Assembly (NCBI GenBank): GCA_016788115.1
Contig: JAEURR010000006.1
Coordinates: 1 to 64,000 of the forward strand
Direction of reading: 5' to 3'
Length of the DNA: 64,000 nucleotides
Source: Chthonomonas sp.
GTDB lineage: Bacteria > Armatimonadota > Fimbriimonadia > Fimbriimonadales > Fimbriimonadaceae
Shown here piece by piece: positions 4,093 to 47,966 of the stretch (positions are counted from its first letter, which is position 1; each line of letters begins with the position of its first letter). The translations under genes were made by a program, and so were the position numbers. Below the pieces are notes generated by a model, which saw only the letters and a program-made list of their open reading frames with translations, was not told the DNA's origin and made no database searches.

Positions 4093-4105
4093 CTGAACCT
4101 AGATC

Positions 4106-4151
<46 letters not shown>

Positions 4152-4300: not shown

Positions 4301-4302
4301 AA

Positions 4303-6954: not shown

Positions 6955-8640
6955 TCAGTTGGTGGCAAGATCGCAGAACTCTTGCTTGATCGCATCGACG
7001 GAGGTCGATGATATGCTGCCAATTTCAAGATTATAGAGTATGTATTGGGGCTTCCTATGCGATTCAGATCTCGGCAGGGGGGTGATGCCAAGTTGGGTCT
7101 CTAGATCTTGCGGGATACGAGTAATTCTCTTCGTGTATGAAGTCTTTGCGGTATTGATGGCAGCCGTTACTTCGGTGTCGTGCGAGTTTCCGCTATCACC
7201 ATCGTACAAAATCGAATGGTCAATCCCAAACGCACTCAGAATTGAAACGAAACGATGGATGTTGTACTTTCCCATGCAGTCGATGACCGCTAAGCCATTC
7301 GCAGGCGGGTCCATCAATGCTCGCGTAATCAAGTAGCGATACAGTGCCACTTCGCTGGGGCCTTCGACGAGGATCACTCTTTGGGCAAAAAAGGCAGTGG
7401 AACGACTTGCCTGCATCCATAACTCGGTCTTTAACGAGGCCATCAACGCAGCCTTGTTATAATCGGCAGGAGTTGTTCCAATGGGAGTAATCGTATCGTC
7501 CGCGACCAACGCATCTTGAAAGAGCGTGTCCAGTTCAATCTGGCTGAGTTGAAATGACGAAGTCACGCCATTATCCCTTCGAACTCGAATCAGCCGAGTC
7601 AAGTCATTCATCGAACGACTTACGAAGCGCGGGCTGTGCGTAGTTAGCAGAACCTGCGTAGATTCATCGCTAGCCAACTTTAGTAGACTGTCCTGGAGGA
7701 CTTCCTCTTGAGACGGATGTAAAAACGCCTCCGGCTCCTCAAACAGAATCCACGTCAAATTTGGACTGAATTCTTTCTTTGAAGTAGCTGATGCCTTTGG
7801 TGCGTTTGTATGCTTTGCTGCAAGCTTGATCAATGTGTAGACCAGATGCCGCTGAAAGCCCGCTCCAAAGCGTGACTGATCTACCTCACCCCCGTGTGAT
7901 TCATCGATTAGCTGAGGCTTAATAATTGTCTTGAGCATTTCCTCAGGCTGTATTGTCTGAACGGCAAGAGAGAATGTTGTTGACCACCCTTGAATTTCTT
8001 TAGAAACTTCCAGCTCTAATGCTTCGATTGATTGACCGTCAGGGCTGGTCTGCGTCTTAATCGTGCCTTCGAACGTTTGAAAAGCCTCAGTCAATGCCTC
8101 ATATGCTTCACTTCCTGCAACCACCTTGTTCAACACAGTGGCGACCAGCTCACGAAGTGCCGATGGCCCGGAGAGCTTCGTAGTATCGTCAATCTTGCTG
8201 ACAGCTGGAATGTATACGATGTGCCCTACTTTGCCTGAACCAACGTTTTTCGCGCCGTAGAACAGATTCTCTGAGAGGCTCCCGCCTTCATAAGCATAGT
8301 AGCCGGATCTCTGCTTGCCGTCTGGTCCGGTTGACGGGCTGACATAATTCCTAACTCTGAACGTATCATTTGAAGACTTGTACTCGTCTTTGAGTTGTGA
8401 TAGTTCATCTGCGCTTGGCTTGAATTCAATCTCGACCCACGACTCCGTATCTTCGGGAGTAACTTTGGGCAGATCTCGATTACTGTCCCATTTGATTTCT
8501 CCATAGAACAGCCTAATAGCGTCAATGATGTTGCTCTTGCCTGCGTTATTTGCTCCCGCAATCAGAGATAGCGATTCAAGTCGAATCACTGCATGGTGAA
8601 TACTGCGGAAGTTATGAATTGTGACTTCTAGTGCGTGCAT
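6955..8640 (-). CDS. OLD-family ATP-dependent nuclease (AAA + TOPRIM)
   Basis: A 561-residue protein. The N-terminus is a RecF/SMC-like ATPase: M-H-A-L-E-V-x-I-H-N-F-R-S-I, then Walker A G-A-N-N-A-G-K-S at 29-36. A signature/Walker B region reads [12 protein letters not shown], followed by a T-T-H-S-P-R-F switch His. The C-terminal TOPRIM nuclease domain has V-E-G-P-S-E and D-G-D-S-G-N. OLD nucleases (P2 Old, GajA) degrade DNA and act in phage exclusion; class 2 members pair with UvrD-like helicases. Here there is no UvrD partner; instead the gene starts at a TAATG junction with the type III-like res gene (1-base overlap), implying translational coupling. An upstream GTG at 8652 is possible but lies inside res. 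Confidence 0.88.
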
Positions 8641-11627: not shown

Positions 11628-11631
11628 GTTC

Positions 11632-13581: not shown

Positions 13582-13638
13582 TTTTCTTGTCTTAAACTTG
13601 ACTTGAGTCTATCAGGTAAGGAGTGCTGGCGAAAGGCG

Positions 13639-27593: not shown

Positions 27594-27782
27594 CTAGCAG
27601 CTTTGTTTAGGCTCCTCAGATGGCGTTCGTCGAGTGTCCTGATTCTGCTCAACGACATTTTGTGGACTCGTTGACGCAAGCACTGCCTGCTCCCGCCTCT
27701 CTCTGATTTCATCGACAGCTCTATCAAGTCTGTCCCAGTAGCTCTTGCTTTCCGCTGTTCCGTAGTTTCTCTCGAATCTCAT
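27594..27782 (-). CDS. Small protein coupled to AvcD-like deaminase
   Basis: A 62-residue charged protein (M-R-F-E-R-N-Y-G-T-A-E-S-K-S-Y-W-D-R-L...). The ATG overlaps the deaminase stop by 4 bases (ATGA), which is good evidence for a genuine, co-translated gene. The C-terminus is Gln/Thr/Pro-rich and likely disordered. No family is recognised. It might be an accessory or regulatory partner of the deaminase. Confidence 0.6.
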   Translation of the reverse strand: MRFERNYGTAESKSYWDRLDRAVDEIRERREQAVLASTSPQNVVEQNQDTRRTPSEEPKQSC

Positions 27783-29407
27783 GGTCTGTTCCCTGTGTTG
27801 CCCTTTGGAAACACCTCACTGTACTTTTCTAGCACAGGTGCTTCCAGTTGTAAAACTGCTTTTGTGTCAAATGGAAATCTAAACTGGTGTGGAGTAGATG
27901 AGTCTTTCGTTAATGCTCGCTCACCATCTTTCCGCTCATGCCTTATACCTGTCTGGGTCCACATTGCAAATAGAGAATCATATCTCCTTGGTGCAATTCC
28001 TATTAATGGAACAATGTCAACCTTATTCTCCAGTCCACGAAGGATGTTATCGTCGATGTCCTTCTGGGGAGGAATGTCCAAGTACTCACTTTTCAGTGCG
28101 TCTCCATGAAGTTTCAACGCATGGCTCTTTGGATAAGGCTGGACGTATACAACCCGATCAATACCTGCTGCAATAATGTGCCTCGCACACGTGTGGCAAG
28201 GAAACGTAGTTGTGTATAAAGTCGATTCAGCAACCGAAAACCCTTTTGAGGCAGCGGAAATGATTGCATCCATCTCAGCATGAACTGATCTGCCAAACTC
28301 AATAATATCCTTCACTGGTGAAGCGGCAAGTGCAGATTGTATTTGAGCGGAACACACCACTTCAACGTCGATTTTAGCCTCGATTATTTCGTGAATGCCC
28401 TTAAGTGTTTCTACCACTCGCTTTGCAGCCTCATCAACCAATCCTTGTCGAAACCTTTGGCCAGGATCGTACTTCAACGCATAGTCAGAAACATCGTGAG
28501 ATTGACCAACCTGGTACAGTCCACCTCCCGGCATGGGAGCATCATTTCTACCAACAGCAATCATCCGACCTTTTTTATCGAACAACGCTGCACCAACCTG
28601 ACGAGATAAATCTCCCGATCGGAATGAAGCATTGTAGGCTACCTGCATACCGAATTCATCGTGTCGCGGAACCTCATTGAAGTGAGAGGTGCATAGCCTC
28701 AAAATTCTCTCAAGGTCATTCTTCCAAGTTAGGCTGCCATTTTCTTGTTGGGTCTTCGAAATAAAGGCATCACAAAGCTCAAAAAGGTCTCTGGTGTTCT
28801 GGCCTGAGTCGTCACTTTCAAATGCATCATGAGTGATCAAATCTTGAGCGTTATCTTCACTCTTACACTTCGCTTTCAGACGCTCTTTACGATCCTGAAA
28901 AGACTCATGAACACCAATCAGAAAAAAGGAGTCGCCGTAAACCTCTCTGAGTAAGCGAGCTTCATCAGGGTGTTTTAAAGATCGAATTTGCGTCACTCGG
29001 AGTTTATCTGCGTTTGCTTTCCTGTTTTCAGATATTTCAAAAACGCAGTGATGTGAGAGTACGGAATCCAGTTCCGTGCTCGACCTTAACAAGTTACCGG
29101 CTTGTTGGCGTGCTCTTGTCTTTGCGTGATAATCTATGGAATCAAAGTCCCGGAGAACGTCTTCAGACGGGGTTAGATTCTTGATCGCTTCGACAACTTT
29201 GATAGTGTGGTGGAAGGCATCTCCGCCAAAAAAGGACCTAACACGCTTCATTGGAGAATCCGCTTCTCCCTCACAATCCAACTCCACGCCAATCGGAGCG
29301 ACCCACCCAATAATGAAGTCCCTTCCTTGCTCACCTGAAGATTTTGACGCGGAAGCCATACTTAGTAGACAGACGTCTGCTTCGCCTGAAAAGTTTCGGT
29401 TTTCCAT
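27779..29407 (-). CDS. AvcD-like antiphage dCTP/dCMP deaminase
   Basis: A 542-residue two-domain protein. The N-terminal P-loop-like region starts I-I-G-W-V-A-P-I-G-V-E-L-D (residues ~32-44). The C-terminal zinc deaminase domain has H-A-E at 376-378 and P-C-H-T-C at 403-407 in the order expected for CDA-fold dCMP deaminases. This arrangement is that of AvcD antiphage deaminases, which deplete dCTP/dCMP during infection and are held inactive by a small RNA (AvcI) in Vibrio. I saw no clear AvcI-like RNA, but only ~70 bases separate the start from the element end. The region is noticeably AT-richer than its neighbours, suggesting a separate origin. Start at 29407 is uncertain; 29467 or 29359 are alternatives. 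Confidence 0.82.
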   Translation of the reverse strand: MENRNFSGEADVCLLSMASASKSSGEQGRDFIIGWVAPIGVELDCEGEADSPMKRVRSFFGGDAFHHTIKVVEAIKNLTPSEDVLRDFDSIDYHAKTRARQQAGNLLRSSTELDSVLSHHCVFEISENRKANADKLRVTQIRSLKHPDEARLLREVYGDSFFLIGVHESFQDRKERLKAKCKSEDNAQDLITHDAFESDDSGQNTRDLFELCDAFISKTQQENGSLTWKNDLERILRLCTSHFNEVPRHDEFGMQVAYNASFRSGDLSRQVGAALFDKKGRMIAVGRNDAPMPGGGLYQVGQSHDVSDYALKYDPGQRFRQGLVDEAAKRVVETLKGIHEIIEAKIDVEVVCSAQIQSALAASPVKDIIEFGRSVHAEMDAIISAASKGFSVAESTLYTTTFPCHTCARHIIAAGIDRVVYVQPYPKSHALKLHGDALKSEYLDIPPQKDIDDNILRGLENKVDIVPLIGIAPRRYDSLFAMWTQTGIRHERKDGERALTKDSSTPHQFRFPFDTKAVLQLEAPVLEKYSEVFPKGNTGNRP

Positions 29408-29479
29408 GCTACCGCAAAAGAATCCTTTACCGCATGAGACGGAGGAGGGCAATAACTTGACGCGCATCTTCGAGGAAAA

Positions 29480-29535: not shown

Positions 29536-29556
29536 CTTCATTCTTGAACCCAAATC

Positions 29557-29603
<47 letters not shown>

Positions 29604-29762: not shown

Positions 29763-30893
29763 ATGGCAAGACAGCGCAGAAACGCCGGTTACACCGTCTC
29801 AAAGCGGTCCGATGGACGATGGATGGCCAGGGTGTTCCTGGGCTACGAGAACGGCAAGCAGAAGCGACACACGATCTATGGCAAGACCGAGATTGAGGTG
29901 AATCGTGCCGCTCAAGACTTCCGCGTCAAGAACGAAGAAGGCGCGTTCGCGCCAACTTCGAAAGACTGCAAGGTAAGCGAGTACCTCGACAAGTGGCTCG
30001 AAGTCTACGTCACTTGCCCACCGCTTGCGCCCAAGACGGTGAAGTCGTACAAGGAGCAAACCAAGAATCACCTGATCCCATCCTTAGGGGCGATCCCGCT
30101 GAGGAAGCTCGCGCCCCAACAGGTTCAGAACATGATGAAGGAGAAGATCGCGTCCGGGCTCTCACCTACATCCGTCAACGGCCTGCATCGTGTCCTTCGA
30201 GCGGCCCTTTCGCAAGCGGTCAAGGATCGAATGATCGCCGAGAATGTGGCAAAGCTGGTGAAACCGCCTAAGGTCGCGAGTCGAGCGGAGAAGCACTTTA
30301 CTCAACCCGACTTACAAAAGCTCTTCGCCGCATGCCGTGGCCATCATCTCGAATACCTGTTCCGCTTGGCACCATATGTCGGCCTTCGCTTAGGTGAGAT
30401 CACAGGTTTACGGTGGGTTGATGTGGACTTCGAAGATCAGACCATCCGCGTGAGGAATCAACTCCAATGGGTTGATGGCAAGCCAACTCTCCGCGAACCC
30501 AAGAGCGCAAACAGCAAGCGCATTCTGCCCATCGGAGATTTGGTGGACATGCTCCAACTCCAAAAGTCGATGATTCTCGTGAACGGTTGGGAGAACAAAA
30601 TGAATCTTGTCTTCGTCAGCTCGACGGGTAATCCGCTTGATCCGAAGCTCGTGAACAAGTACCTCAAGATTCTCTGCGGGCAAGCCAAGATCAGCGAACT
30701 CAGCTTCCACAGCTTCCGACACACGGCGGCCACTTTGCTTCTTGCCGCTGGAGAAGAAGCCACCGAAGTAATGAATATGCTCGGGCACAGCCAGATTTCG
30801 CTCACTGTCAATACCTACGGAGGGGTAACGAGGGAGGCTCAAAGGCGAGCGGCACAGAAGTTGAGGAAGGCCATTGACGAAGGCATTAAGTGA
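29763..30893 (+). CDS. int: Tyrosine recombinase/integrase of element B
   Basis: A 376-residue integrase with N-terminal arm-binding-like beta domain (~8-60), core-binding domain (~68-165) and catalytic domain. Visible catalytic residues are R209 (V-G-L-R-L-G-E), H316-x-x-R319 (H-S-F-R-H), H342 (L-G-H-S) and the nucleophile Y352 (V-N-T-Y-G-G). It shares fold and target with the element A integrase but differs in sequence throughout. It lies 160 bases inside attachment copy 2. Confidence 0.95.
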   Translation: MARQRRNAGYTVSKRSDGRWMARVFLGYENGKQKRHTIYGKTEIEVNRAAQDFRVKNEEGAFAPTSKDCKVSEYLDKWLEVYVTCPPLAPKTVKSYKEQTKNHLIPSLGAIPLRKLAPQQVQNMMKEKIASGLSPTSVNGLHRVLRAALSQAVKDRMIAENVAKLVKPPKVASRAEKHFTQPDLQKLFAACRGHHLEYLFRLAPYVGLRLGEITGLRWVDVDFEDQTIRVRNQLQWVDGKPTLREPKSANSKRILPIGDLVDMLQLQKSMILVNGWENKMNLVFVSSTGNPLDPKLVNKYLKILCGQAKISELSFHSFRHTAATLLLAAGEEATEVMNMLGHSQISLTVNTYGGVTREAQRRAAQKLRKAIDEGIK

Positions 30894-34868: not shown

Positions 34869-36215
34869 TTATGAAAACTTCAGCTTCTCAATGGTATCAA
34901 AGAAATCTTTTCTAGTCTTGTACTTTCCGCGAGTTCCGATCAATAATACGAAGAAACGCCAAGCAACCTGAAGAAACTCGACTAAGAGTTCCAATTCCTC
35001 AATTTTCTGGTCATGGTGGACGACGTCTGAGCGCAGGCCGTAAGCTTTGACAATCGTTTTTGAGATTGCCCTTCTATCTTCTCCGTTGTCGCTGATCGTG
35101 AACGCAATTCGCTCCGCGATACTTTGCTGAATAGACTCCGTTTTGTTTTGTAGCAAAAATGAATCTAGCGACCGAAAGACGTACAACAGTCGGTCTTCTG
35201 GTGATTTTTGAAGCGAACTTTTAGAAAAGGTCCAAATACTCCTCCAGAGGTCTTTCTCGAACTCAGTTTGATTCAGACAAATGAACATGTGATGCAATCC
35301 GCCCATTCCGGCCTGCTGAAGCATGTCCATTGTTTCGTCGTTTAGCGAGAAGTATTCAAACGGTTCGTCATCTCCAGTTGCGAAACCGACAACAGCATCA
35401 TCCAGTATTGTGAGAACCTCGCTCCCGTCCACATGGGCTCGACCAAGTGGTCGTATATGAGATGGAATCAACGGGTGGAGAATGCACGGTTGAAATGTCC
35501 GCAGAATTGCCAACGCATTTTCTGTTTCCGCAAGTGCGATCTCCTTTGCACGCATCGGCTCAGCAAGCAACTTAATCGTGCAACTCGCATGCCCTTGGAG
35601 CCGCGTTCTGTAATGCGCGACAAGGGCTTGTGATTGCTCATCCCACACTCCCTTCAACTTCAGTTGCCCCTCCCAAGTCTCAAAAAACTGGGGTCTGAAA
35701 GGATGAACTTCTACTCGACCGAGCTCGAAGTCAAAATCAGTTGTCAATCCATGAACAGGAACCCAGACCCATATGGACCTGACTCGCTCTTCGAATTCGG
35801 CAAGCAGGTACTCACAAAGTGGTGCAGTAATCGTTTGCTGGTGGGAACCGACTGCCCAATCAAAAACAGTATCCTCCACCGCCTTCTGGCTAACACGTTC
35901 CCGAAATCCTTCTGTTCTTTGAATATTCTCCGATAGAATTCGGACGGTGCGGTAGGCGTCTTCTCCAACTCCTATGCGACCTTCGCCAATCTGACGATGC
36001 TTCGTGAGGATCGTACCGACGACATCAACCTTCATCTCCGTGAAGTTTTTGATCTCCTCTAAGCTGAGGGAAGCGACAGGAATAAATCCTCCTTCTGCCT
36101 TCGTAGATGCCTGTTTGATAATCGGAGCGACTTCGATTAAGGCAAGCAGTGCTTGTCCCTCGGCATTAAATCCCTGAACTGCATTTGGGTGCAGGTAAAC
36201 CTTTGGACCGCTCAA
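34869..36215 (-). CDS. Large protein with C-terminal ApeA-like HEPN domain
   Basis: A 448-residue protein. The C-terminal ~140 residues are helical and contain R395-S-D-V-V-H400, an R-x4-H motif typical of HEPN RNases, in the context A-Y-G-L-R-S-D-V-V-H-H seen in ApeA-like HEPN domains. The N-terminal ~300 residues are mixed alpha/beta, could be the sensor part, and are unrecognised. HEPN proteins often act as toxic RNases or scaffold effectors in abortive infection. It is the last gene of the leftward operon, 46 bases after the TIR gene. Confidence 0.7.
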   Translation of the reverse strand: MSGPKVYLHPNAVQGFNAEGQALLALIEVAPIIKQASTKAEGGFIPVASLSLEEIKNFTEMKVDVVGTILTKHRQIGEGRIGVGEDAYRTVRILSENIQRTEGFRERVSQKAVEDTVFDWAVGSHQQTITAPLCEYLLAEFEERVRSIWVWVPVHGLTTDFDFELGRVEVHPFRPQFFETWEGQLKLKGVWDEQSQALVAHYRTRLQGHASCTIKLLAEPMRAKEIALAETENALAILRTFQPCILHPLIPSHIRPLGRAHVDGSEVLTILDDAVVGFATGDDEPFEYFSLNDETMDMLQQAGMGGLHHMFICLNQTEFEKDLWRSIWTFSKSSLQKSPEDRLLYVFRSLDSFLLQNKTESIQQSIAERIAFTISDNGEDRRAISKTIVKAYGLRSDVVHHDQKIEELELLVEFLQVAWRFFVLLIGTRGKYKTRKDFFDTIEKLKFS

Positions 36216-36261: not shown

Positions 36262-36888
36262 TTACCAAGGTACTTCACCGCCATCGGACCATCTGCACTC
36301 CGGGCATTCGACCCCGGCATACATGTCGTCTCGCTTCGGGTCTGGCGCAGACCATTGCTTGAGCTGGTCCGCTGGTAAACCACACTTCGGGCAACAGACA
36401 TAGACCCCTGCCCCGTGAAACTCACGAAACGGAAGTAGAGTGCTCTCAATGACTTCCTGAATTGCTTTCCTAAATTCAGCGTCGGTCTCGACTCCAAGCA
36501 GTACTCGCGCCACTCTAAAGTGATCCTCGTCCTTTGCATCAATGTAATGGATCGGCGCAAGTATTGTTGGAACGGGCGTATCGTCGAGAAGCACGGGCAC
36601 AAACCGGTAATGTTGTTCCTTAGTCCACCGAGTAATGGCCGCGTTCATCTCGTTCCTGACCCAGTTTGATCCTTCGGCCCCCTTCGACCAAACGAGAACG
36701 AAAGTGTCGAAACCGGATAGCCCGGCGTCAATGGCTGACGGGATTGAGTCGCCAGGACGAATCCGCCATTTATCCAACCAGACCTGAGCGCCGGTCAAGG
36801 TCAGGGCTGCCGCCAAACTCCGGACGAACTCTGAGCTTTCAGAGTTGTAAGAGATGAAAAGTCGCGAATCCTGGTCAACCTGTCTCAC
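36262..36888 (-). CDS. TIR-domain protein with C-terminal zinc ribbon
   Basis: A 208-residue protein. The N-terminal TIR domain (1-135) has R-L-F-I-S-Y-N-S at 9-16, V-W-L-D-K-W at 36-41, and S-N-W-V-R-N-E at 74-80 with E80 at the catalytic position of NAD-hydrolysing TIRs. The last ~45 residues hold C-C-P-K-C ... C-P-E-C, a zinc ribbon that could bind nucleic acid or a partner. TIR effectors deplete NAD or make signalling nucleotides. The start lies 3 bases after the Mod stop, so it is co-translated with Mod. Confidence 0.9.
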   Translation of the reverse strand: MRQVDQDSRLFISYNSESSEFVRSLAAALTLTGAQVWLDKWRIRPGDSIPSAIDAGLSGFDTFVLVWSKGAEGSNWVRNEMNAAITRWTKEQHYRFVPVLLDDTPVPTILAPIHYIDAKDEDHFRVARVLLGVETDAEFRKAIQEVIESTLLPFREFHGAGVYVCCPKCGLPADQLKQWSAPDPKRDDMYAGVECPECRWSDGGEVPW

Positions 36889-36891: not shown

Positions 36892-39756
36892 TTAAGTCAC
36901 CTCGTAGACCTTCAGCACTTCGTCGCCGTAGTGGTTGATCACTTTGACTGCGATCTTGCCCGTCGATGGCTTGGCAAACGGCTGACTCTTCGTCGAATAG
37001 AGCGCCGACCAAGCCGCCTCGTTGATTTCGGCCCGCAGCGCTCGTTTCAGCTTGTCGTACGGTTCGTCGCCGCCCAGGAAGTAGGCGTGCCGCACGAAGA
37101 AGCTTTCGCCGTTATAGTTTGTGTCAATGAACCAGACGGCAAGGTCGTCGGTCGATCCGCTCCGAATCTGGCCCGTGGTCGGGTCGTAGACGTCCAAACC
37201 ACGAACCTCGACCGTGACCTTTCCTTCTTCTTGGGCAAGCACCACGTCAGGTTCTCCAAAGACCATGAAGAGATTGCCCGCGCCGGTCTTCTTCAGCAGT
37301 TCGTCGCCCATGCTCAGGTCATTGTTCATGCGAACCGGAAGCACGGTCAGCGATCCAAACTGTTTTGCCTCTTCGCTGGCGTAACCGTCGAAGCTGAATC
37401 CGCATACGATCAGCAGATCGAACCCGACGCCCTTCACCGCTTCTTTGGCGGCTTCCTTGATCCAATCTGGGCCAACCGTGCCGAACTCGGGTCCGATACT
37501 GACCGCGACGGTCTTCGATCCTCCGTCGGCGTCGGTGTAGCTCCCCCTGGCGTGAACCCACGCCCCGGCGAACGGTTCGAGCGCATCGAACTTCAGCCGC
37601 TCGCCCTTGCGAGTGTTCTGAACGCCCGCCTTTCGTAGGTTGTCGAGGATCATGCTTTCAAACCGCTTGCCGCCGGTCTCGGTGTGGGCCTGCTGTTCGC
37701 TCTGAGGCGCGTCGGGGTTCGTCTCAAGAACGCGGTGAGGGGCAAGGCTTTCGACCGTGAACGGCCCAGTGACGCGCACCCGGCTCTTGTCCTCGTACGG
37801 TTGATCGTAGAGAAGCTCCGTTTCGGCGTGCCTCAGAATCGCTTTGTCAATCTCCTCGCGCCGGGCGTCCATTAGCTTCCAATAGTAAGAGTAGGCTACA
37901 TAGTGGCGATGCTTCTCTTCGCCTTGGTGCAACATGTAGACCAAGTCTTCAAGGGACCGAATATGATCAATATCAGGTTGTCCGGGTGCCCATTCTAGTC
38001 CCCAGTTCAACTCGTCCACTGTTTCCTGAGTCCGGGGAACAGTACCGACGATCCAATCCTTTTCCGAATAGGTCCGAATCGTTTCGACACATCTTTCGAG
38101 CAAAGGGTCATACGTTGCCGCGATGCCGTCGATGGCCGGGTTGTTCGCTATGCTACCAAGGGTCACATGAGGAACCCGCTCGTACACGAAGCCCTTCCGC
38201 ACGTCTTCTTCGGTCGGATAGCTTGGCGGCACTTTGCCCGTGATCTCCCCTTCTTTTTGAACACCCTCGGGCGAATCGGCTAGGAGATAATAAGGGAATC
38301 GTCCCGCGATGATTCGGGTACGCGCGAGGGTCATGGCGACACGACTCGTATCGAGCGTGATCCACCGTCGGCCCCACTGTTCAGCGACGTAAGCGGTCGT
38401 ACCACTTCCACAGGTTGGATCGAGCACAAGGTCACCGGGGTCGGTGGTCATCAACAGGCATCGCTCCACCGTCTTCGTTCCCGTTTGAACGACATAGACC
38501 TTGTCTTCTGTGAAGCTACCGGTAGCAGTGTCAGTCCAGAGCTTCGTGATTGGAATGCATGGGAAGTCGCTTAGATAGCGAACGTATTGAAGACTATTCT
38601 CTGCAACATGAAGCCGCCCAGCGTGTCCGAGCCGACGAAGGCCGTCAACCGTTGTCTTCCAGGTCTGTTTGTAGCACTTACCCTTCCAGCTGAATTCAAC
38701 AAGTGGATTGCCCTGGGACGTGATATTGTCAGGCTTATAGATTCGGACGTCGTTCGGGATCAGGTTCGGATTCTGTCTTTCGTCGGCCTTCATACTCCTG
38801 CGACTTCCATTGGGAAGCTCAACCCAGGAGTAGTTAGACGCGGTTCCTTCGTCAAAGCTCTTTTCAAGATAAATGCTTCGAAACTTGACATGTTCAATGT
38901 CTTTGGCAAACCACAGCAGTTGATCGCATCGGTTTGGAAGAAGCTTGCTCCCGAGGCCCGAAGTCTTGACAAATGTGATTACTCCGCAAAGGTTTTCAGC
39001 CCCAAATACTTCGTCGAGCAAGCATCGTACAACATGCGCGTTTTCCTCGCCGATCTGAACGAACACGCTTCCTGACTCCGTGAGGAGCTCTCGTGCCACG
39101 ACAAGCCGGTCACGGAGATAGCTTAGGTACGAGTGAATGCCAAGCTTCCACGTATCCCGGAACGCACGGACCTGTTCCGGTTGGCGCGTCGCGTCTTCGG
39201 CTTTGTCCCCGACTTGCCGCTTGCGCGTGCTGACCTGCCAGTTCGACCCGAACTTGATTCCGTACGGCGGGTCGAAGTAGATCATCTGAACCTTGCCCTT
39301 CAGCCCTTCCTTCTCGGCCAGTGAGTTCATCACAAGCAGTGAATCACCCAGGATCATCCGGTTCGTCCAATGGCCCTCATGGTGATAGAAGTCCACTTTT
39401 TTGTCGAACTCCTCGATCCCGTTGAAGTCTCCAAAAAGGTCGAGCTGGTCGCTCGCTCCTTCGACCGCCGCGCCCGGATTGGCGCGAATGTTCTCGATGA
39501 TGGCCGAAGGGTGAATCTTTTCCTGAATGTAGATCGGCACGGTCGGAACGGCAAGGTCTTCCTGGTCCTGCTCATCCTTGCCCTTCCAGACAAGCTGAGG
39601 ATCGAGCGAGGGATCACGCGGATACAGCGCCCGCGCCTCGCGCACCTCGTCTTGAGCCACAAAGTCCTTCAGCTCCTGAGTCGGAATATTGACCCGGCTA
39701 TCCTGGTGCTTCGTGTACTCGATCTTCGTGCCGTCGTTCTTAGGTTTCCTTGCCAT
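36892..39756 (-). CDS. Type III-like DNA methyltransferase, Mod (element B)
   Basis: A 954-residue adenine methyltransferase with D-P-P-Y-G-I at ~162-167 and the AdoMet motif V-L-D-P-T-C-G-S-G-T-T downstream (beta-class order). The start A-R-K-P-K-N-D-G-T-K-I-E-Y-T-K-H is typical for the Mod partner of BPTD_3080-family Res enzymes. The extra C-terminal ~350 residues, beyond ordinary Mod, are characteristic of this subtype. The cognate res is five genes upstream at 44567, with DUF262, SIR2 and pAgo inserted between. 12 bases separate it from DUF262. Confidence 0.92.
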   Translation of the reverse strand: MARKPKNDGTKIEYTKHQDSRVNIPTQELKDFVAQDEVREARALYPRDPSLDPQLVWKGKDEQDQEDLAVPTVPIYIQEKIHPSAIIENIRANPGAAVEGASDQLDLFGDFNGIEEFDKKVDFYHHEGHWTNRMILGDSLLVMNSLAEKEGLKGKVQMIYFDPPYGIKFGSNWQVSTRKRQVGDKAEDATRQPEQVRAFRDTWKLGIHSYLSYLRDRLVVARELLTESGSVFVQIGEENAHVVRCLLDEVFGAENLCGVITFVKTSGLGSKLLPNRCDQLLWFAKDIEHVKFRSIYLEKSFDEGTASNYSWVELPNGSRRSMKADERQNPNLIPNDVRIYKPDNITSQGNPLVEFSWKGKCYKQTWKTTVDGLRRLGHAGRLHVAENSLQYVRYLSDFPCIPITKLWTDTATGSFTEDKVYVVQTGTKTVERCLLMTTDPGDLVLDPTCGSGTTAYVAEQWGRRWITLDTSRVAMTLARTRIIAGRFPYYLLADSPEGVQKEGEITGKVPPSYPTEEDVRKGFVYERVPHVTLGSIANNPAIDGIAATYDPLLERCVETIRTYSEKDWIVGTVPRTQETVDELNWGLEWAPGQPDIDHIRSLEDLVYMLHQGEEKHRHYVAYSYYWKLMDARREEIDKAILRHAETELLYDQPYEDKSRVRVTGPFTVESLAPHRVLETNPDAPQSEQQAHTETGGKRFESMILDNLRKAGVQNTRKGERLKFDALEPFAGAWVHARGSYTDADGGSKTVAVSIGPEFGTVGPDWIKEAAKEAVKGVGFDLLIVCGFSFDGYASEEAKQFGSLTVLPVRMNNDLSMGDELLKKTGAGNLFMVFGEPDVVLAQEEGKVTVEVRGLDVYDPTTGQIRSGSTDDLAVWFIDTNYNGESFFVRHAYFLGGDEPYDKLKRALRAEINEAAWSALYSTKSQPFAKPSTGKIAVKVINHYGDEVLKVYEVT

Positions 39757-39768: not shown

Positions 39769-41523
39769 CTATCTCGCTTCCAGCGCCGGTGCCAATAGCT
39801 TCCGCAGGTGCCCTTCCAACAGCTTCGAGCGTTCATCCATGAATTGTTCAAACCGATCTACCGAGTACAGTGTCGCGTCATTCGGGATGAAATTCCTCTC
39901 CAAGAAGCTTGGGTCACGGGTCGTGATCCACTCTTCAAACGAAGTCGCTGACTTCTCTTGGTTCTCAGCCGCACTCAGCAAACAGAGGTTCGAAGTCTTG
40001 TTCAGCGGGCTGTTCCACCAAAACATCTGCTTGTCGTAATCATCGCTCGGCAATCGCGTGGACTTGGGGAAAATGTGGTCGATATGAAGGTCCGCCGCTC
40101 CCTGAGCACCCGAATAGAACAGCGAAAGTACAGCCCGAATGTGGGAACTGCTGTAAGAAAGGTCCATTGTCTCTGAGATGATTCCGTTCAAAAGCTCTGC
40201 CGAGCCACCGTCTTCCGACTCGGCGATCAGTCCTAGAAGAGGGAACGGTTTATTTCCTTCGACAGCCTTGCGAATCACATCACGCGCCTTTGACAGGGCA
40301 GAGTCTGCACTACTCCGGAACTGACCCCGTAGCAAGGCAAGGACAAGCCAAGCGTGGATCGACTTGGCATTCAGCACATCGTCGATGGAGGTCCCGTCTG
40401 GACGTAGATCGCGTCGCTTCGAGTAGAAGTAAACGATGGGGATCAGTGCGTTCGTGCTTGTCAGTGTGTCGCCGGTAATGCCATACGCGCTGAGAAGATC
40501 GACTGCCTTTCCAATCGCCTTCTTCGACTCAGTCCAATTCTCTTTGATCTTGAGTAGATTGGTATCAGTAAAATTCTGTACACGGTACTTGATAGGGAGA
40601 TCGTTGATGACGAGGCTGGCCTTCATTACAAAGTCCTTGTCGATCTCAGAGCGCCTTGGAAGGGAACGGTTGAGGCGATCAACCAGCGATTGAATTTCGT
40701 GTCGGGCGTCTACATTGCCCCAGCTTGCGGTAATCGTGCTCATAAGGAGGTCTGACTTGCTCAGCTTGGTTCCGCCAGAATTCGCCCGAACGAATACGTC
40801 AAGAACGCGGTCGTAATCCTGCTCGCGCTCCACGTAATATGCGATGACGTCGTCTTTGTGGATCGCCCTGTACAGGCGGTCCAAATTCATCCTAGCAGCG
40901 CGACGTTGTTCCTTCGTCGTGCTCTCATCGATGGACTCGACAAATTCGTCCCTGTACTCGTCGAACTCTCGGTCTGACTTGAACGAAAGAATCTTCCCAA
41001 CCTCGAACCAACGGCTATCCCCGTTCGCCTTGCCGCCCTTTCCCTTGTCTCGAAACTCGAACCGGAAGAAAATGTCTTCGTAGTTCGGATCAACCAGGGT
41101 TAGCGGGTCATGGAGAATATCGAGAAACAGAGTTCGCCTGCTCCATGCGTCGGGGTTGTCCTTTCGACCGTATTTCTTTTTGACCGTGTAGGTTCCGCGC
41201 AAGCCAATGTTCAGAGACGTGAGCCGTTGCTGTCCATCTAAGATGAGGTGAAGATCACTAACGGCGCTGAGATTCGCCTCGGGATTATGGATGCCACCAT
41301 CCTTCCCGTCGATCAAGAACTGATAGGCGCGCCACTTCTCGTAATTCTCAGACTCAATAGACCAGAAAAGGAACGAACTGATCGGGTAGCCACGGAGAAT
41401 TGAGTCGAACAACTGGATAATCTGCGAAGAGTCCCAGACAAATTCCCGTTGGATTGCTGGCAAATAGAAGTTGGTGTTCAGCCTTGCAATAGTGCTTGCG
41501 ATAGTTTCAGTTTTGTAACTCAT
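39769..41523 (-). CDS. DUF262/DUF1524 (GmrSD-like) nuclease
   Basis: A 584-residue protein. The DUF262 (ParB-like, GmrS) N-terminal domain shows L-P-A-I-Q-R-E-F-V-W at 21-30, G-Y-P-I-S-S-F-L-F-W, and L-D-G-Q-Q-R-L at 95-101. The C-terminal HNH/DUF1524 (GmrD) part has D-H-I-F-P-K at 482-487 with a downstream N. GmrSD enzymes are NTP-dependent type IV nucleases against modified phage DNA; DUF262 is also the Dz10/Ssp-like DNA-sensing module in other systems. ATG at 41523 overlaps the SIR2 stop (ATGA). It is the innermost nested gene, adjacent to Mod. Confidence 0.88.
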   Translation of the reverse strand: MSYKTETIASTIARLNTNFYLPAIQREFVWDSSQIIQLFDSILRGYPISSFLFWSIESENYEKWRAYQFLIDGKDGGIHNPEANLSAVSDLHLILDGQQRLTSLNIGLRGTYTVKKKYGRKDNPDAWSRRTLFLDILHDPLTLVDPNYEDIFFRFEFRDKGKGGKANGDSRWFEVGKILSFKSDREFDEYRDEFVESIDESTTKEQRRAARMNLDRLYRAIHKDDVIAYYVEREQDYDRVLDVFVRANSGGTKLSKSDLLMSTITASWGNVDARHEIQSLVDRLNRSLPRRSEIDKDFVMKASLVINDLPIKYRVQNFTDTNLLKIKENWTESKKAIGKAVDLLSAYGITGDTLTSTNALIPIVYFYSKRRDLRPDGTSIDDVLNAKSIHAWLVLALLRGQFRSSADSALSKARDVIRKAVEGNKPFPLLGLIAESEDGGSAELLNGIISETMDLSYSSSHIRAVLSLFYSGAQGAADLHIDHIFPKSTRLPSDDYDKQMFWWNSPLNKTSNLCLLSAAENQEKSATSFEEWITTRDPSFLERNFIPNDATLYSVDRFEQFMDERSKLLEGHLRKLLAPALEAR

Positions 41524-42674
41524 GCTTGTACTCCCGCACAATCCCCGTTGTCGATATTCTCCTCACTGCTAACCTCTGCCTCTAGGAACGGTTGCGCATC
41601 TTGTGGTATCAAGTTTTTGATGAAGGAACCAATGTCCTCTTTTGTAAAAAGCTCAGAGGCTCGATAAGGCAAAACCACGCAAGGATTAATTTCTTCACAA
41701 TTCAGGTCAAGCAGAGTCGCAATCCGATCCTGTTCTGAATCGACGTCTTCCTGTCTGCAGTTGCTTGCAATGCAAAGTCGCGGACCATTCGGTTCCCGTA
41801 TGGCTTGTGTCAGGAGTTTGTTGATGTGGTGATCCGCGAAGCCGTATCCGACTGTCAGGATTGTCCGAGCTTCCGATGTCAAACGGCGGAATTCGTAAGT
41901 GTAGAAGAGGTATGGGTCACCCGCTTCCAATTTGAATTCACGACCGAAAATAAGCTCCATTGCACGAGCGTTCACGTTCTGAATCTGATCTACTTGATAG
42001 AGCCGCCCAGACGTATCGCGCTTCCAGTTAATGGAACCATGAAGCTTGTAGAGGTATAGCTCTGGAAAGGGATCGCCCGAAGTTTCTATTTCTGCAAATC
42101 GCTGTGGGTCCCAAGGGTTGTTCGGACCTTCGCCTGCAAAGCCAGTTTCAACCCTAAATTCGTTCGCCCGTAATGATTCGACGCATAGATCGTAGTTGAG
42201 TGAGAAGACTCTTAGCGAATAGTTGAGGTCTTGTTGTAAGTTCCTTAAGCCCGAGTAGTAGCCTCGTCTTCCAGGGTCTTCAGGGCACATCCACCCCTTC
42301 AACCTTTCCAGAATCTTCTCTCGGAACTTCTGTATCTCGCAAAAATCCTTGCCAGCAAGGTCCAGAAACCGGGAATTCCACGATGCGATGAAGGGATAAA
42401 TCGGATGCTCTTCATTTCGTTCTAATTCCAGAAGTGTGTTTACTAACGTCTCAATGTTGTAAACCACTTGGTCACCAAAACGTCCTCGAAGACCTGCGCT
42501 GTAATGAATCGCGCTACGAACGTGTTCGTATAGTCGCCTGAATGGCATCCAGTCAGGATCATTTCTGAGCAGTTCCTCAATCTGCGTGATCATAGCGGCT
42601 GATGTTGGAATGCCCGCATCTGCGCTGGCACCAGCACCAAGCAGTATTAAGAGATCACGGGATCGGTTACTCAT
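41520..42674 (-). CDS. SIR2-family NADase-like protein, pAgo partner
   Basis: A 384-residue protein with SIR2-like motifs: G-A-G-A-S-A-D-A-G-I-P at 13-23, S-L-N-Y-D at 158-162, L-H-G-S-I-N-W with H212, and V-G-Y-G-F-A-D at 275-281. SIR2 effectors linked to Argonautes hydrolyse NAD on guide-directed target recognition. In short-pAgo SPARSA systems SIR2 is fused to an APAZ domain; this protein is too short and shows none. The stop-to-start gap to pAgo is 6 bases and it overlaps DUF262 by 4 bases. An arrangement with a larger inactive pAgo plus a stand-alone SIR2 is known for long-B pAgos. Confidence 0.88.
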   Translation of the reverse strand: MSNRSRDLLILLGAGASADAGIPTSAAMITQIEELLRNDPDWMPFRRLYEHVRSAIHYSAGLRGRFGDQVVYNIETLVNTLLELERNEEHPIYPFIASWNSRFLDLAGKDFCEIQKFREKILERLKGWMCPEDPGRRGYYSGLRNLQQDLNYSLRVFSLNYDLCVESLRANEFRVETGFAGEGPNNPWDPQRFAEIETSGDPFPELYLYKLHGSINWKRDTSGRLYQVDQIQNVNARAMELIFGREFKLEAGDPYLFYTYEFRRLTSEARTILTVGYGFADHHINKLLTQAIREPNGPRLCIASNCRQEDVDSEQDRIATLLDLNCEEINPCVVLPYRASELFTKEDIGSFIKNLIPQDAQPFLEAEVSSEENIDNGDCAGVQA

Positions 42675-42680: not shown

Positions 42681-44570
42681 TCACAGGAACCACGGCTTTA
42701 GGTTCTCCACGGCAGGTAGTGGCAGTCCACGCGCTTGGAAGTCGTGAACGAGTTCTGCAACCAGGTGACAGTAATAGACCGATACTGGGGCATTTCGAGC
42801 GTTGAAGCCTCTCCAATTAGCCCCTGAGAGGTTGATCAGGTCTTGGAGCAGTTCCTCATCTGAAAGGGCACCTTCCGAGGACTCCCAGAGCTTCTGGACA
42901 TGGGTTGGGCCTGGGAAGGCTTTCGTCACCGTAGTTCTGCCCCTCGAAATGCCCTCGAACCAGAGCAAGAACTCGTTTCCACCGAGACGCACACCTGTTG
43001 CGCCGTATGGCACAAGGCTGTTCGCCTCTGGGTTGATGGCGAAGAACCGAGTTTGCTGGTTGATTTTCAGGACTGCGAAGTTATGTGTCGCCTGATCTGC
43101 GGCAGCAGCCTCAACTGTATCCTGTATTGAAGCCATCTCGTCTCTACGCAATCGAAACGATGCATGAAGGACAACATTCCGATATGATTCCGCCGCAGTT
43201 CCTAACTCCTCTGCCAGCTTCGATTTCAGTTCAGCAATGTATTGATCGTGATTCGCCGTCTCCGAGAGAACCCGAATCTTCTGGAACGCCCCGCTACTAT
43301 CGGTAAGGACCGCAAACGCAAAGAAACGCTCAATACCGCCTTCTGGGTTAAGTTTGTGACTCTGACTCACTCCAACGATCAAGGTATCGGTCTTAAGTGC
43401 CTTAACGTGCCAAGGCTGTCCACCCATCTTGCAGAACATTTGGAGCGCAATGTTCGCGATAGACCATTTGAGTTCGTCATCGGATGATAGAAGCGCGACA
43501 GTGCATCCTTGACTAGGTAACCCCGCGTTTGAGAAGGCGGACTTGATTGCGAGATACCTCGATTCGTCTTTGTCAGGCAAGATGAATACCGGCAATGGAG
43601 CGGGATCGTCGGCTTGTGCGCGAAGCAACACACGCTCGATTTCTGTTGCTGTGAATTCGCTTATTATGACCGGCTTCGTGTCCACCTGGACGGCGGTTCT
43701 GAAAAGGGCTTCAAATCCAGGAAAGCTACCAACTGACTTCTTGCCAGAGATAGCGTTGGCAAGACGAACAGCCGCCTGACGATCTTCCGCTCTGAAAGCA
43801 AATAGGAGCTTCGGGTTTGTCGGCGGTAGGGAATGAGGTCCGATGTCACGAACGCCCGGATACTGTGCTTCGCCAGTCTTTCCACCGGCGAAGGTGTACA
43901 CGCGCGGGCTCATTTCGAAGCCATCGACGGGCACAAAGTTGCGGTCAAGCTTTAGGGCCTCAATGCATCCAGATAGCTTCAAATCGGACAATAGGGTTTC
44001 GGCTCGGGCAACATAACTTTGGATTCGATCAAGCTTGTCTTTGTGGAAATCGACGTTGCGCCGGTAGTTTCTATCCAGTGACAGAGAGCGTTGCTGGATT
44101 CTGCGGCTAAATGGAACATCTGGGTTCTTCCTAAAGTGAAAGTCGGCTATGAGTCCATATTGATGTTTGACCTTCAGAAAATAGGGTTCCAAGACGAACA
44201 TGTCGGTGCCTTCCGTGTACGTATCCATTGGAAGTTCCAACTGATCGTGAAACCCAGGTTCGTAACTGAACTCGGAAGAATGCCTTTGTGCCGATTCCAG
44301 CAAAGCTCGTAGAAGTGCCCACCGACCCAGGTGGACATTGTCGTCTGGCTCAACGGAAAACTCATCGAATCCTTCGAGAGATTGGCTGGAAATCCAATAG
44401 GATCTCCTCTCGTCCCCACTTCGTGAGACAGGGAGAGTAAACCTGCGAACTCCGTCGACCGGCTTGGACTCACCCTCCTGCAAGATGCACTTTCGCCAAA
44501 CCGAAAAGGATGGAAGACCTTGCAGAATCGGCAGGAAGTTGAGCTTAAGTTGATATCTATTTTCGTTCAA
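42681..44570 (-). CDS. Prokaryotic Argonaute, apparently catalytically inactive
   Basis: A 629-residue protein. The C-terminal ~380 residues read as MID-PIWI. MID (~250-385) has V-F-I-L-P-D-K, R-Y-L-A-I-K, P-S-Q-G-C-T and F-C-K-M-G-G-Q-P-W, the 5'-end binding signature. PIWI (~390-625) includes T-L-I-V-G-V-S-Q-S-H, V-V-L-H-A-S-F, and a final L-I-N-L-S-G-A-N-W-R-G-F-N. The catalytic Asp expected after G-[IV] is Ser402, and other DEDX positions are also not evident, so slicing is unlikely. The N-terminal ~250 residues contain Q-Y-G-L-I-A-D-F-H-F and S-R-R-I-Q-Q-R-S-L-S-L-D, seen in long-type N/L regions, but a PAZ is not apparent. Likely guide-dependent sensor that triggers SIR2. It overlaps res by 4 bases. 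Confidence 0.87.
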   Translation of the reverse strand: MNENRYQLKLNFLPILQGLPSFSVWRKCILQEGESKPVDGVRRFTLPVSRSGDERRSYWISSQSLEGFDEFSVEPDDNVHLGRWALLRALLESAQRHSSEFSYEPGFHDQLELPMDTYTEGTDMFVLEPYFLKVKHQYGLIADFHFRKNPDVPFSRRIQQRSLSLDRNYRRNVDFHKDKLDRIQSYVARAETLLSDLKLSGCIEALKLDRNFVPVDGFEMSPRVYTFAGGKTGEAQYPGVRDIGPHSLPPTNPKLLFAFRAEDRQAAVRLANAISGKKSVGSFPGFEALFRTAVQVDTKPVIISEFTATEIERVLLRAQADDPAPLPVFILPDKDESRYLAIKSAFSNAGLPSQGCTVALLSSDDELKWSIANIALQMFCKMGGQPWHVKALKTDTLIVGVSQSHKLNPEGGIERFFAFAVLTDSSGAFQKIRVLSETANHDQYIAELKSKLAEELGTAAESYRNVVLHASFRLRRDEMASIQDTVEAAAADQATHNFAVLKINQQTRFFAINPEANSLVPYGATGVRLGGNEFLLWFEGISRGRTTVTKAFPGPTHVQKLWESSEGALSDEELLQDLINLSGANWRGFNARNAPVSVYYCHLVAELVHDFQARGLPLPAVENLKPWFL

Positions 44571-47500
44571 GGCACTTTGCCCCCGGCAAAATAAGGCGTC
44601 ACAGCGACCCGATCAAGATGAGCCCGAATCGCACCTGCCGCGTCCCAAGGGTCGGTGATTTCGATGAAAGCCCATCGGCCCAAACCACCGTGATTGTTCA
44701 CGGCAGGAACCCAGAGCGTTTCAGCGGTCGTGACTTTGGATTCTTTGTCCCGCTTCTGTGCCCCCGAAACTTCTACGATCAGGTTCAGTGGGTCGCCGTG
44801 ATCGACTCCGTCGTCGATCACGGCGATGAAGTCGGGAATATAGTTCCGCTGTTCGCCCTGGATCACATACGGGATGAGGAAGTTCAGACCCTGATTCTTC
44901 ACGTAGCGGATCACTTCGGGCATGTCCTCTAGAACCTGTTCGACCTTGAATTCCCAGTTCGAATCCGCGACGACATGCGACACGTGGCACTTGTCGGTCC
45001 GAGTCGCCATGACCGGCTTCGTCGTGTCGAAGTCCACATACCGGGTCGAACCGCAAGTGTCGTATGGGCGAAGGATCGGCTTGAGGGTACGTTTGGTCTC
45101 GGAAGCCCGCACAATGGCTTTATAAATGCGGTCAGCGGCTTCATAGGCAGTCTCCGTCAGCAAGAGAAGCTGAGGAAACGTGTCGTCTTTGCACGTGACG
45201 CATCGGGCAAGCCATTGCTTCGTGATCGAGAGTAGTTCGGGGAATCGCCAAGCTTGCACGTCCTGAACTCGGCCCGGTTCGGCGTCTTCGCCTTCGGGGG
45301 GTTCTTGCCTAAAGTAGCGTTCCAGAACGATCTTCGCCAAGAGGAACGCAACTTCGCTTTCACGCTTGCCGCGAAGGTCGTCAAGCGTGTGAATGCTGGA
45401 TTCGCCGACGATTGGCGCATTCTCGGTCTTGGTCGGAATATCGAGCGTGCTGAGGGTCAGATTCGAAGAGTCGGTGAAGTCGGCAGTCAGTCGTTCGGAT
45501 CGAATCTCGAACCGGTACCCGGTCAGCCTTGGGAACGTGATCTCGCACTCCATCCGGCTTTCAAGCGCTCGAACCCGGGTCGGGATCGGCCCCGGCTTTG
45601 GCCCTCCGGTGGAACCCGAACAAGGAATAAATGAGAACGGGACGCCGTAGACTTCGGCGTACTCCGGCTCGAATGCTTCGATCTCGACCGGTCCGGAGGG
45701 CCGTTCGAGCGTTCGCGTGGTTGCCGCATAGGACATGCGTCGGAGCCCGCGTCCGACCACCTGCTCACACAATAGCTGAGTGCCGAAAGCCCGAACTCCC
45801 AGAATGTGAGTGACCGTATTCGCGTCCCAGCCTTCGGTAAGCATGGACACGCTGACGACACATCGGATGTGTTCGCCAAGCTTGCCCGCCTTACCGACCG
45901 TGTTCATTACCTCTCTCAGGCAGTCTTCGTCGGTGATGTCGTCGGGGTTTCGACCGGGGAACCGTTGGACGTATTCAGCCTTGAACCGCTCGATTTCCTC
46001 ATGAGCGATCTTCTTGAAGTCGGCTGACATGGCGTCCCCTGAATCGAGTTGTTCGGAGTCAATCAGGATCGAGAAGGGACGGTGCCCCCATGCTCCGTCA
46101 CGCTCGTTCGAGAACAGCGGCAAGTTTCCGGGAACGACGATAGAATCGCCGTTTGAAAGCTCCTTCTCCCAACCCGAAACCCAGTCGTAAACAAGCTTCG
46201 AAACATTGGTGTTCGAGCAAACGACGATGAAGACCGGCGGGGTTATGCCCTTGGCGCGCGCTTCTTCGTTGGACTCCCAGAGCTTGAAATAGGTCTCGTA
46301 GTTGGCGTACAGGCTTCGCAGTGCGCCTTCGAGTTCTACTGGAAGCTTCGGTTCACCCGACACGGCGTCGGTCTTGCGTCCCTTCTTAGGAAGCGCGTCT
46401 TTGATGGAGACCCAGAGGTTCCGATAGGTCGGCTGTTCGCCGATCCCGGCGTTGTCTTGCACCGGCACGCGGGGCACTTTGACGATTCCGGATTCAATCG
46501 CATCAATCAGCGAGAAGTCGGAGACAACCCAGGGGAACAGAGTTCCTTCTGGCCAACCCGAACCACGAAGGAAGAACGGAGTCGCCGACAAATCGTAGAT
46601 CGCGCGAACTCCGATCTTATTCTTGACAGCTTCGATCCCTCGAAGCCAAATCCGGGCAAGTTCGTTCCGCTTCTTGGCCTCTTGGCCGTCTTCGCCGCTT
46701 AGCTTTTCCTCTTGTTCGCCGGGCTTGCGAACGTAGCAGTGATGCGCCTCATCTGAGAGAACGACGATGTTCTTCTTGTTGCCGAACTCTCTACACACCC
46801 GTCGAACCATTTCGTCGGGCGTCTCGGTGAACAGACCGGCTTCACCGTTGCCAAGAACCGACTTCGTCAGCTTTGGGGCTTCGATCTTCTCACGAAGCTT
46901 GAATGCGTGATAGTTCGTCACGATCATCTTGGCCCGGTGAAGCTGTTCCATCATGTCCGACGGCATTAGGTCAAGGGCACGGTAAATCGTATGCGGGTCG
47001 CTTGGTAAGAGAACCCGAAGTCGGTCCTTGATCGTGATGCCGGGAGTGATGATTAGGAATGTGTCGGAGAATCGTGCGTCTTGAGGGTTTGCTAGCTTGT
47101 TCAGAGCATGCCAAGCAATCAGCATTCCCATTACGGCGGTCTTGCCCGTACCCGTTGCCAGCTTCGACGCGATCCTGAAGAGACCTGGATTCGAAGAGTC
47201 GTTTGCTTCTCGCACCGAATTTTCGATCCAACCGTCGCCAAACTTCTTAGCCGCCTCGGTGATGTAAATGACCGTTTCGACAGCCTCAATTTGACAGAAG
47301 AACAGCCGTCTTGTGCGTTCAGAGTTCGTCCAATGTTCAAGTAACCGTGCGGTCGTTGTCGTGACGCCCGCATACCCGCCGTCGCGCCAAATTCGAACAC
47401 GCTCACGAATCCGGTTGATCGTTGTGTTCTCTTCAATCCGATCCGCAGTCCATTCGGTCTCAAAGACGAGCTGGCCACCTTTTTTCTTGACTTGAGCAAT

Positions 47501-47635
47501 GGGGATGAAGTACGAACTCGGTCGTCGAGATTCGAGAACCTCGTTCGTGATCCCATCAGACGCAAACTTGAAGTGGCGCGACGGAGCGACAAACGGCGAA
47601 TTTAGAATTGGATTTTCTATCGTGCTGTCGCTCAT
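44567..47635 (-). CDS. Type III-like restriction endonuclease Res, BPTD_3080 family
   Basis: A 1022-residue SF2 helicase-nuclease. Start E-N-P-I-L-N-S-P-F and R-R-P-S-S-Y-F-I-P-I are signatures of the BPTD_3080 family. Motif I is A-T-G-T-G-K-T near 170, motif II D-E-A-H-H, motif III S-A-T-P-F-F, and motif VI G-R-G-L-R-R. A PD-(D/E)XK-like C-terminus is marked by Y-I-P-D-F and V-E-V-S. It is the first gene of the operon, so the promoter must be in 47636-47890 next to the right end of element B. The stop overlaps the pAgo start by 4 bases. Confidence 0.92.
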   Translation of the reverse strand: MSDSTIENPILNSPFVAPSRHFKFASDGITNEVLESRRPSSYFIPIAQVKKKGGQLVFETEWTADRIEENTTINRIRERVRIWRDGGYAGVTTTTARLLEHWTNSERTRRLFFCQIEAVETVIYITEAAKKFGDGWIENSVREANDSSNPGLFRIASKLATGTGKTAVMGMLIAWHALNKLANPQDARFSDTFLIITPGITIKDRLRVLLPSDPHTIYRALDLMPSDMMEQLHRAKMIVTNYHAFKLREKIEAPKLTKSVLGNGEAGLFTETPDEMVRRVCREFGNKKNIVVLSDEAHHCYVRKPGEQEEKLSGEDGQEAKKRNELARIWLRGIEAVKNKIGVRAIYDLSATPFFLRGSGWPEGTLFPWVVSDFSLIDAIESGIVKVPRVPVQDNAGIGEQPTYRNLWVSIKDALPKKGRKTDAVSGEPKLPVELEGALRSLYANYETYFKLWESNEEARAKGITPPVFIVVCSNTNVSKLVYDWVSGWEKELSNGDSIVVPGNLPLFSNERDGAWGHRPFSILIDSEQLDSGDAMSADFKKIAHEEIERFKAEYVQRFPGRNPDDITDEDCLREVMNTVGKAGKLGEHIRCVVSVSMLTEGWDANTVTHILGVRAFGTQLLCEQVVGRGLRRMSYAATTRTLERPSGPVEIEAFEPEYAEVYGVPFSFIPCSGSTGGPKPGPIPTRVRALESRMECEITFPRLTGYRFEIRSERLTADFTDSSNLTLSTLDIPTKTENAPIVGESSIHTLDDLRGKRESEVAFLLAKIVLERYFRQEPPEGEDAEPGRVQDVQAWRFPELLSITKQWLARCVTCKDDTFPQLLLLTETAYEAADRIYKAIVRASETKRTLKPILRPYDTCGSTRYVDFDTTKPVMATRTDKCHVSHVVADSNWEFKVEQVLEDMPEVIRYVKNQGLNFLIPYVIQGEQRNYIPDFIAVIDDGVDHGDPLNLIVEVSGAQKRDKESKVTTAETLWVPAVNNHGGLGRWAFIEITDPWDAAGAIRAHLDRVAVTPYFAGGKVP

Positions 47636-47852: not shown

Positions 47853-47878
47853 AAAAAGCCCCTTGGGAGGGGCTTTTT
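47853..47878. terminator. Hairpin terminator of tRNA-Lys(CTT)
   Basis: AAAAAGCCCCT-TGGG-AGGGGCTTTTT lies 12 bases beyond the CCA end of the intact tRNA gene and has T-runs on both strands. It belongs to the right end of element B. Confidence 0.85.
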
Positions 47879-47889
47879 GAACCTAAATT

Positions 47890-47966
<77 letters not shown>

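Follow-up and report, generated by a model that had tools for sequence, protein, structure and literature searches.

Self-destructive defence by a slicer-dead Argonaute (pAgo) and a SIR2 NADase is already known. The closest described system is BPAS, represented by GbBPAS (Song et al. 2023, PMC10620215; og_44 of Ryazansky 2018), which has in common with the gene pair analysed here a long-B slicer-dead pAgo, a SIR2_2 protein encoded directly downstream, a catalytic Asn and the PADLOC classes pAgo_II and Aga_SIR2. Guide- and target-triggered NAD+ depletion and the silencing of SIR2 by the pAgo are known only for GbBPAS, and the og_44 operons were described as simple, with 2-3 genes (PMC10620215). 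In contrast to BPAS as described, the pair in the window, that is, the whole stretch of 64,000 nucleotides that was analysed, is nested in a seven-gene restriction-modification (R-M) operon, and its pAgo appears to have no PAZ domain.

The nearest solved MID-PIWI structure is that of fAfAgo (AfAgo-N/AfAgo; PMC10954474), which has the PAZ-less long-B layout and the same 5'-phosphate pocket as the window pAgo; AfAgo, however, consists of two separate chains and has a non-SIR2 partner, Af1317, whereas the window pAgo is a single chain. RsAgo and EcAgo, the latter being the pAgo of BPAN, are long-B proteins that likewise contain an inactive PIWI domain, and RsAgo is the full-length structural match of the window pAgo, but both carry a PAZ* of about 70-105 extra residues, and the partner of EcAgo is a nuclease. 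SPARSA, a short pAgo with SIR2-APAZ, also combines a dead pAgo with a SIR2 NADase; its pAgo, however, belongs to the short clade, and its SIR2 is fused to APAZ and comes from a different lineage than the window SIR2, which is of the SIR2_2/ThsA/HerA-partner type. With respect to genomic setting, PrrC in the prr loci is a toxic effector encoded by a gene nested in an R-M locus. The PADLOC Hma-embedded candidates and the BREX backup effectors (PMC12839542) are further cases in which, as with the window pair, a toxic gene resides inside a DNA-modifying defence operon. Among such nested effectors, the searched papers contain no pAgo-SIR2 pair, and a search of the open-licence literature found no published description of pAgo-SIR2 nested in R-M operons. 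Among the pAgo-operon orthogroups of Ryazansky et al. are HsdS, a methyltransferase and type III endonucleases.

The window pAgo is encoded on the minus strand (42681..44570) by an open frame of 629 codons, with a TTG start that has a 4-nt overlap with the stop of the 1022-aa gene upstream and is backed by the same start position in relatives (MKDYKIELSFL in locus L016, MNENRYQLKLNFL in the window). Piwi is the sole Pfam match (residues 328-610, E=2.6e-21), and PADLOC pAgo_II matches the protein end to end (E=2.3e-185), as PADLOC Aga_SIR2 (class II) matches the SIR2 protein at full length (E=3.2e-117), so that the pairing is not a chance observation. VGVS (399-402) occupies the site of the first catalytic Asp, opposite IGTGATR of the inactive AfAgo in the alignment, VLHAS sits at the expected HRD site, and Asp occurs at 402 or 470/471 in none of the 45 aligned relatives; with S402 in the window protein, the DEDX tetrad is lost. 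The sequence-only reading, which gave no strand, was thus right that this frame encodes a 629-residue pAgo without slicer residues. The putative 5'-phosphate guide pocket, Y339, K343, Q354 and K381, is identical in 45/45 relatives and is of the YK type, typical of long-B; its AfAgo counterparts we take to be Y123, K127, Q137 and K163.

The AF2 model, built from 45 homologues (pLDDT 92, pTM 0.88), divides the protein into N-L1-L2 (about residues 1-213) and MID-PIWI (about residues 214-629). From residue 214, MID-PIWI superimposes on AfAgo with Z 31.5 (397 aligned residues, 3.0 Å, 21% identity), and residues 5-629 match RsAgo with Z 29.9 over 573 residues. The segment preceding MID-PIWI comprises some 213 residues compared with roughly 320 in RsAgo, and in the profile alignment the N-part is 72 residues shorter than in EcAgo-type proteins (72-105 across EcAgo-type proteins and RsAgo). 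The model has just a short helix (156-161) and a loop to connect the last L1 strand (137-148) with the L2 helix (175-189), which, together with the shorter N-part, suggests that PAZ is missing or collapsed; not even a reduced PAZ* is apparent in the model, a feature that varies among long-B pAgos and is not decisive as a criterion. PAZ loss is documented for long-B pAgos, including single-chain ones (PMC10954474; also PMC6299218). The intermediate size that had drawn attention to this protein, longer than short pAgos yet devoid of an obvious PAZ, is therefore the documented long-B layout, N-L1-L2-MID-PIWI minus PAZ. The first 250 residues, where a normal APAZ had been considered, contain the pAgo's own N-L1-L2 (residues 1-213). 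Because APAZ corresponds structurally to N-L1-L2 (PMC10954474), the statement that there is no APAZ means only that this part sits on the pAgo chain and not on SIR2.

The SIR2 gene (41520..42674, minus strand) begins 6 nt past the pAgo stop and, by Pfam, PADLOC and the AF2 model, encodes a stand-alone SIR2_2 effector of the bAgaS type, 384 aa in length. In the model (pLDDT 88), a single SIR2 domain fills residues 1-350 of 384, which leaves no room for APAZ, as had been noticed from the sequence. The best structural match is the SIR2 NADase of SIR2-HerA complexes (Z 25.2), followed by ThsA (Z 16.1) and SPARSA (Z 15.1). The putative NADase residues N160 and H212 are identical in 47/47 SIR2 homologues. 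In two gammaproteobacterial relatives, the equivalent of N160 is Asn 155, the position mutated in the NADase-dead N155A variant of GbbAgaS, itself of gammaproteobacterial source (PMC10620215); the shared numbering is suggestive, although not proof, that the tested GbBPAS lies in the clade of the window pAgo.

We placed the window pAgo in a MID-PIWI tree that comprised AfAgo, RsAgo, EcAgo, five long-A and eight short pAgos, unclassified rows and the SIR2-paired relatives. The protein falls within a clade of SIR2-paired relatives (SH-aLRT 100; 100*) inside long-B (support 87; 98* without the Rubrobacter row), and the short pAgos form a separate clade (97*). Given this placement, the loss of DEDX, the YK pocket and the same-operon SIR2_2 protein with its catalytic Asn and no APAZ, the window pair is a BPAS system (long-B pAgo and Sir2). 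The tree and PADLOC agree with the earlier suggestion that the known match is a long-B pAgo with a separate SIR2, and they dispose of the notion of a distinct clade in the sense of a new one: the clade is well supported but is the one already described as BPAS and as the PADLOC class II pAgo-SIR2 group, with PAZ loss documented in long-B. A SPARSA-like system with a split fusion, APAZ having moved to the pAgo chain, would account for a slicer-dead pAgo adjoining a SIR2 NADase and for the presence on the pAgo of N-L1-L2, the APAZ counterpart (PMC10954474). It is nevertheless highly improbable, and refuted under the tree model, because the pAgo lies outside the short/SPARSA clade and a constraint that groups the SIR2-paired clade with short pAgos costs 43 log units and is rejected (p-AU 4.4e-6); the MID motif is YK, as in long-B, and the anatomy of SIR2 is of the SIR2_2/ThsA/HerA-partner type, with SPARSA reaching just Z 15.

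A genome scan yielded 49 pAgo relatives (27-50% identity by best segment) from many bacterial phyla and one archaeon, many of the loci being metagenome-assembled contigs. At each of the 53 examined loci, SIR2 is encoded directly downstream of the pAgo gene, with a gap of -1 to 19 nt; 11 of the 53 pairs overlap by 4 nt or nearly so and the others are 2-19 nt apart. This invariant order is what is already known for BPAS. Some copies of the pair stand alone and some are on plasmids, with no near-identical copy of the window pair found on plasmids, and the viral contigs contributed one distant relative (L063). The window pair is the sole copy in its genus and is rare in its phylum, which, along with the TTG start and the loss of the slicer residues, would fit a degenerate remnant whose pAgo function is gone and in which only the R-M operon is maintained. 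There is little to recommend this explanation, however, as the frame is open, the fold is predicted with high confidence, all guide-pocket and NADase residues are kept, and the protein is conserved with relatives at 44-54% identity across phyla.

The R-M setting, absent from the sequence-only reading, is the more interesting part of this locus than the class of the pAgo. The minus-strand gene order is R helicase, pAgo, SIR2, GmrSD/DUF262, N6-MTase, TIR protein and a 448-aa protein. The R gene (44567..47635) encodes a BPTD_3080-family restriction helicase/endonuclease of 1022 aa (NF046055, 1168 bits against a cut-off of 800). Overlapping the end of the SIR2 gene is that of a 590-aa GmrSD/DUF262 protein (39769..41541; GmrSD_N, E=4e-33; PADLOC HEC-05, E=1e-180), followed by the M gene (36892..39756) for an N6 DNA methyltransferase of 954 aa (N6_N4_Mtase, E=2.8e-29; PADLOC MTase_III, E=5e-280), a 208-aa TIR_2 domain protein (36262..36888; E=8.7e-27) that starts 3 nt past the M gene and, as the last gene of the putative operon, an uncharacterised 448-aa protein (34869..36215) for which the Pfam search found no significant family. 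With an NF046055 restriction helicase and an N6-MTase in the same operon, the host is an R-M system of the BPTD_3080 type. The pAgo-SIR2 pair is translationally coupled inside this putative operon and, together with DUF262, is cargo that separates the R gene from the M gene of a single R-M system. In 20 same-phylum BPTD_3080 regions, the R-to-M space often holds other genes, including AlbA-like, RhuM-like and AAA genes, labels that were assigned by eye from sequence, and in several of the regions R and M are adjacent. Because this space holds differing genes or none, the window pair fills a variable cargo slot.

The operon in turn is cargo of a genomic island. A 60-bp copy of the tRNA-Lys 3' half (29544..29603, 97%) forms an attachment-site repeat next to a tyrosine integrase gene (29763..30893, plus strand), and the island's other end (47877..47936) lies within the tRNA-Lys gene (47891-47966, minus strand); the repeats and the adjoining integrase define an island of 18.4 kb that carries the R-M operon. 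A third tRNA-Lys 3'-half copy (4094-4151; 97%) lies beside an integrase-like frame (4303-5436), so called by resemblance only. The three copies delimit a tandem of two genomic islands, and each island has a tyrosine integrase of its own. The GC content is 0.50-0.57 in the islands compared with 0.60 in the flank at 48-64 kb. The second island includes DrmD-like helicase, type III Mod and type III Res genes (8640-16494, minus strand), with a gap of about 57 nt between helicase and Mod; this slot is empty here and holds pAgo-SIR2 in Clostridia (L048, L050, L060). An OLD/GajA-like ATPase-nuclease gene (6955-8652, minus strand) adjoins Res, and at the end of the island is an anti-phage dCTP deaminase-like gene (27779-29467, minus strand; NF041025, E=4e-108, under cut-off; PADLOC dCTPase, E=4e-123).

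For the relatives, PADLOC and Pfam served to annotate the neighbouring genes, labels being transferred by phmmer, and embedding was counted only at the 37 loci whose flanks extend 3 kb or more on each side. The pair is flanked on both sides by genes of one R-M-like system in 14 of these 37. Among the relatives, such positions are found between hsdM-hsdS and hsdR of type I systems (L021, L022, L027, L028, L054, L055), between HmaB and HmaC (L042, L051), between a DrmD-like helicase and type III Mod (L047, L048, L050, L060), between Mod and Res of a type III system (L037), and between DrmD/DrmMI-like and DruE-like genes of DISARM/Druantia-like type (L017, L025). R-M contacts on one side occur at L015, L040, L041, L045, L046, L058 and L061, the contact at L015 being the tail of a window-type MTase (63% identity over 41 aa). 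In about half of the relatives, no R-M gene adjoins the pair, which therefore needs no R-M host. The embedded state switches 17 times on the pAgo tree, with at least 11 changes forced by well-supported branches, so that embedding was gained or lost repeatedly. The background rate of sitting inside an R-M operon was assumed to be 0.5-5%. Several embedded loci are close relatives, which inflates the counts, and with this and the assumed rate the binomial p-values overstate significance. A conserved third component was rejected, the upstream and downstream neighbours varying widely, with TIR, integrase, AbiJ, EcoO109I-type, NUDIX and other genes each appearing once or twice. The window's R-M genes were likewise rejected as fixed partners, since their close homologues adjoin the pair only in the window and at L015. 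What seems to be new is BPAS as cargo between R and M genes, a setting that recurs in about a third of relatives.

The reading that we favour, with a probability of roughly 0.78, is that of a BPAS module for abortive infection that occupies, as cargo, the variable slot of a BPTD_3080-type operon on a tRNA-Lys island, with a mechanism of guided suicide. By analogy with GbBPAS, the MID pocket would bind a small 5'-phosphorylated guide, most likely RNA, and the pAgo would keep the SIR2 NADase silent within the complex until the guide pairs in the cleft with its DNA target from a phage or plasmid invader. The dead PIWI being unable to cut, a shape change might then release or oligomerise SIR2, which would deplete NAD+ and bring about a growth stop or cell death. 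For guide loading, DNA target recognition, SIR2 release and NAD+ depletion alike, we extrapolate from the kept residues, GbBPAS and other dead pAgos. As part of the same transcription unit as the R-M genes, the pair could form a second line against invaders that escape restriction; this role, and any functional tie to the R-M system, we infer from the position in the operon.

Passive co-transfer is nearly as likely as such a second-line role, because R-M neighbours are missing from half of the relatives and genes other than the pair also occupy the slot. An ordinary BPAS whose position reflects the clustering of defence genes in islands, with no functional link, has close to an even chance: the BPTD_3080 slot accepts many unrelated genes, the pair lives alone and on plasmids as well, and embedding is evolutionarily labile. 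Random island neighbours, however, would seldom split an operon, and the pair is found between genes of one and the same system, on the same strand and often with 4-nt overlaps, in at least five kinds of system and on both sides in 14/37 loci. At the other extreme, the seven genes could constitute a single multi-subunit system in which helicase and nuclease make guides or targets for the pAgo; the run of overlapping genes in one operon from 47635 to 34869, partners capable of supplying fragments, and the DrmD-type helicase upstream of the pair in Clostridia are compatible with this scheme, but it is improbable given that the partners are wholly different between relatives (HsdS, HmaB, type III Mod, DrmMI) and that half have none. 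Somewhat less doubtful, albeit still unlikely, is a reading in which R-M-type systems are the preferred hosts of BPAS as a plug-in, with a regulatory or physical coupling of the pair to the R-M machinery.

If the pair were so coupled, guides might come from restriction fragments, or the pair might fire when restriction fails or is inhibited, and one operon would combine a cutting layer with a layer of guided suicide. This touches on how slicer-dead pAgos tell invader from self and on the source of their guides. The repeated settling of the pair between M and R genes of unrelated R-M systems leads to the testable idea that it may be supplied or armed by the products, or by the failure, of the R-M system. 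The pair also places a putative guided NADase among the suicide effectors whose genes reside within R-M operons.

In a sister group made up of L003, L011 and L063, the pAgo chain consists of MID-PIWI alone, with a length of about 437-472 aa in L003 and L063 and truncation by the contig end in L011; these are probably split pAgos. SIR2 is downstream in L003 and L063, and L063 also has a coupled 309-aa gene upstream. At L021 (7573-11855), inside a type I R-M locus, the pAgo gene is interrupted by an opposite-strand gene, probably a transposase, which is repeated downstream (8505-9884, 12498-13877), and the SIR2 gene is broken by a stop. At L042, a caspase-like protein (8405-9925) is encoded between HmaB and the pAgo-SIR2 pair, and at L014 a UG19 reverse transcriptase gene, a DRT candidate (3146-5197), immediately follows the SIR2 gene.
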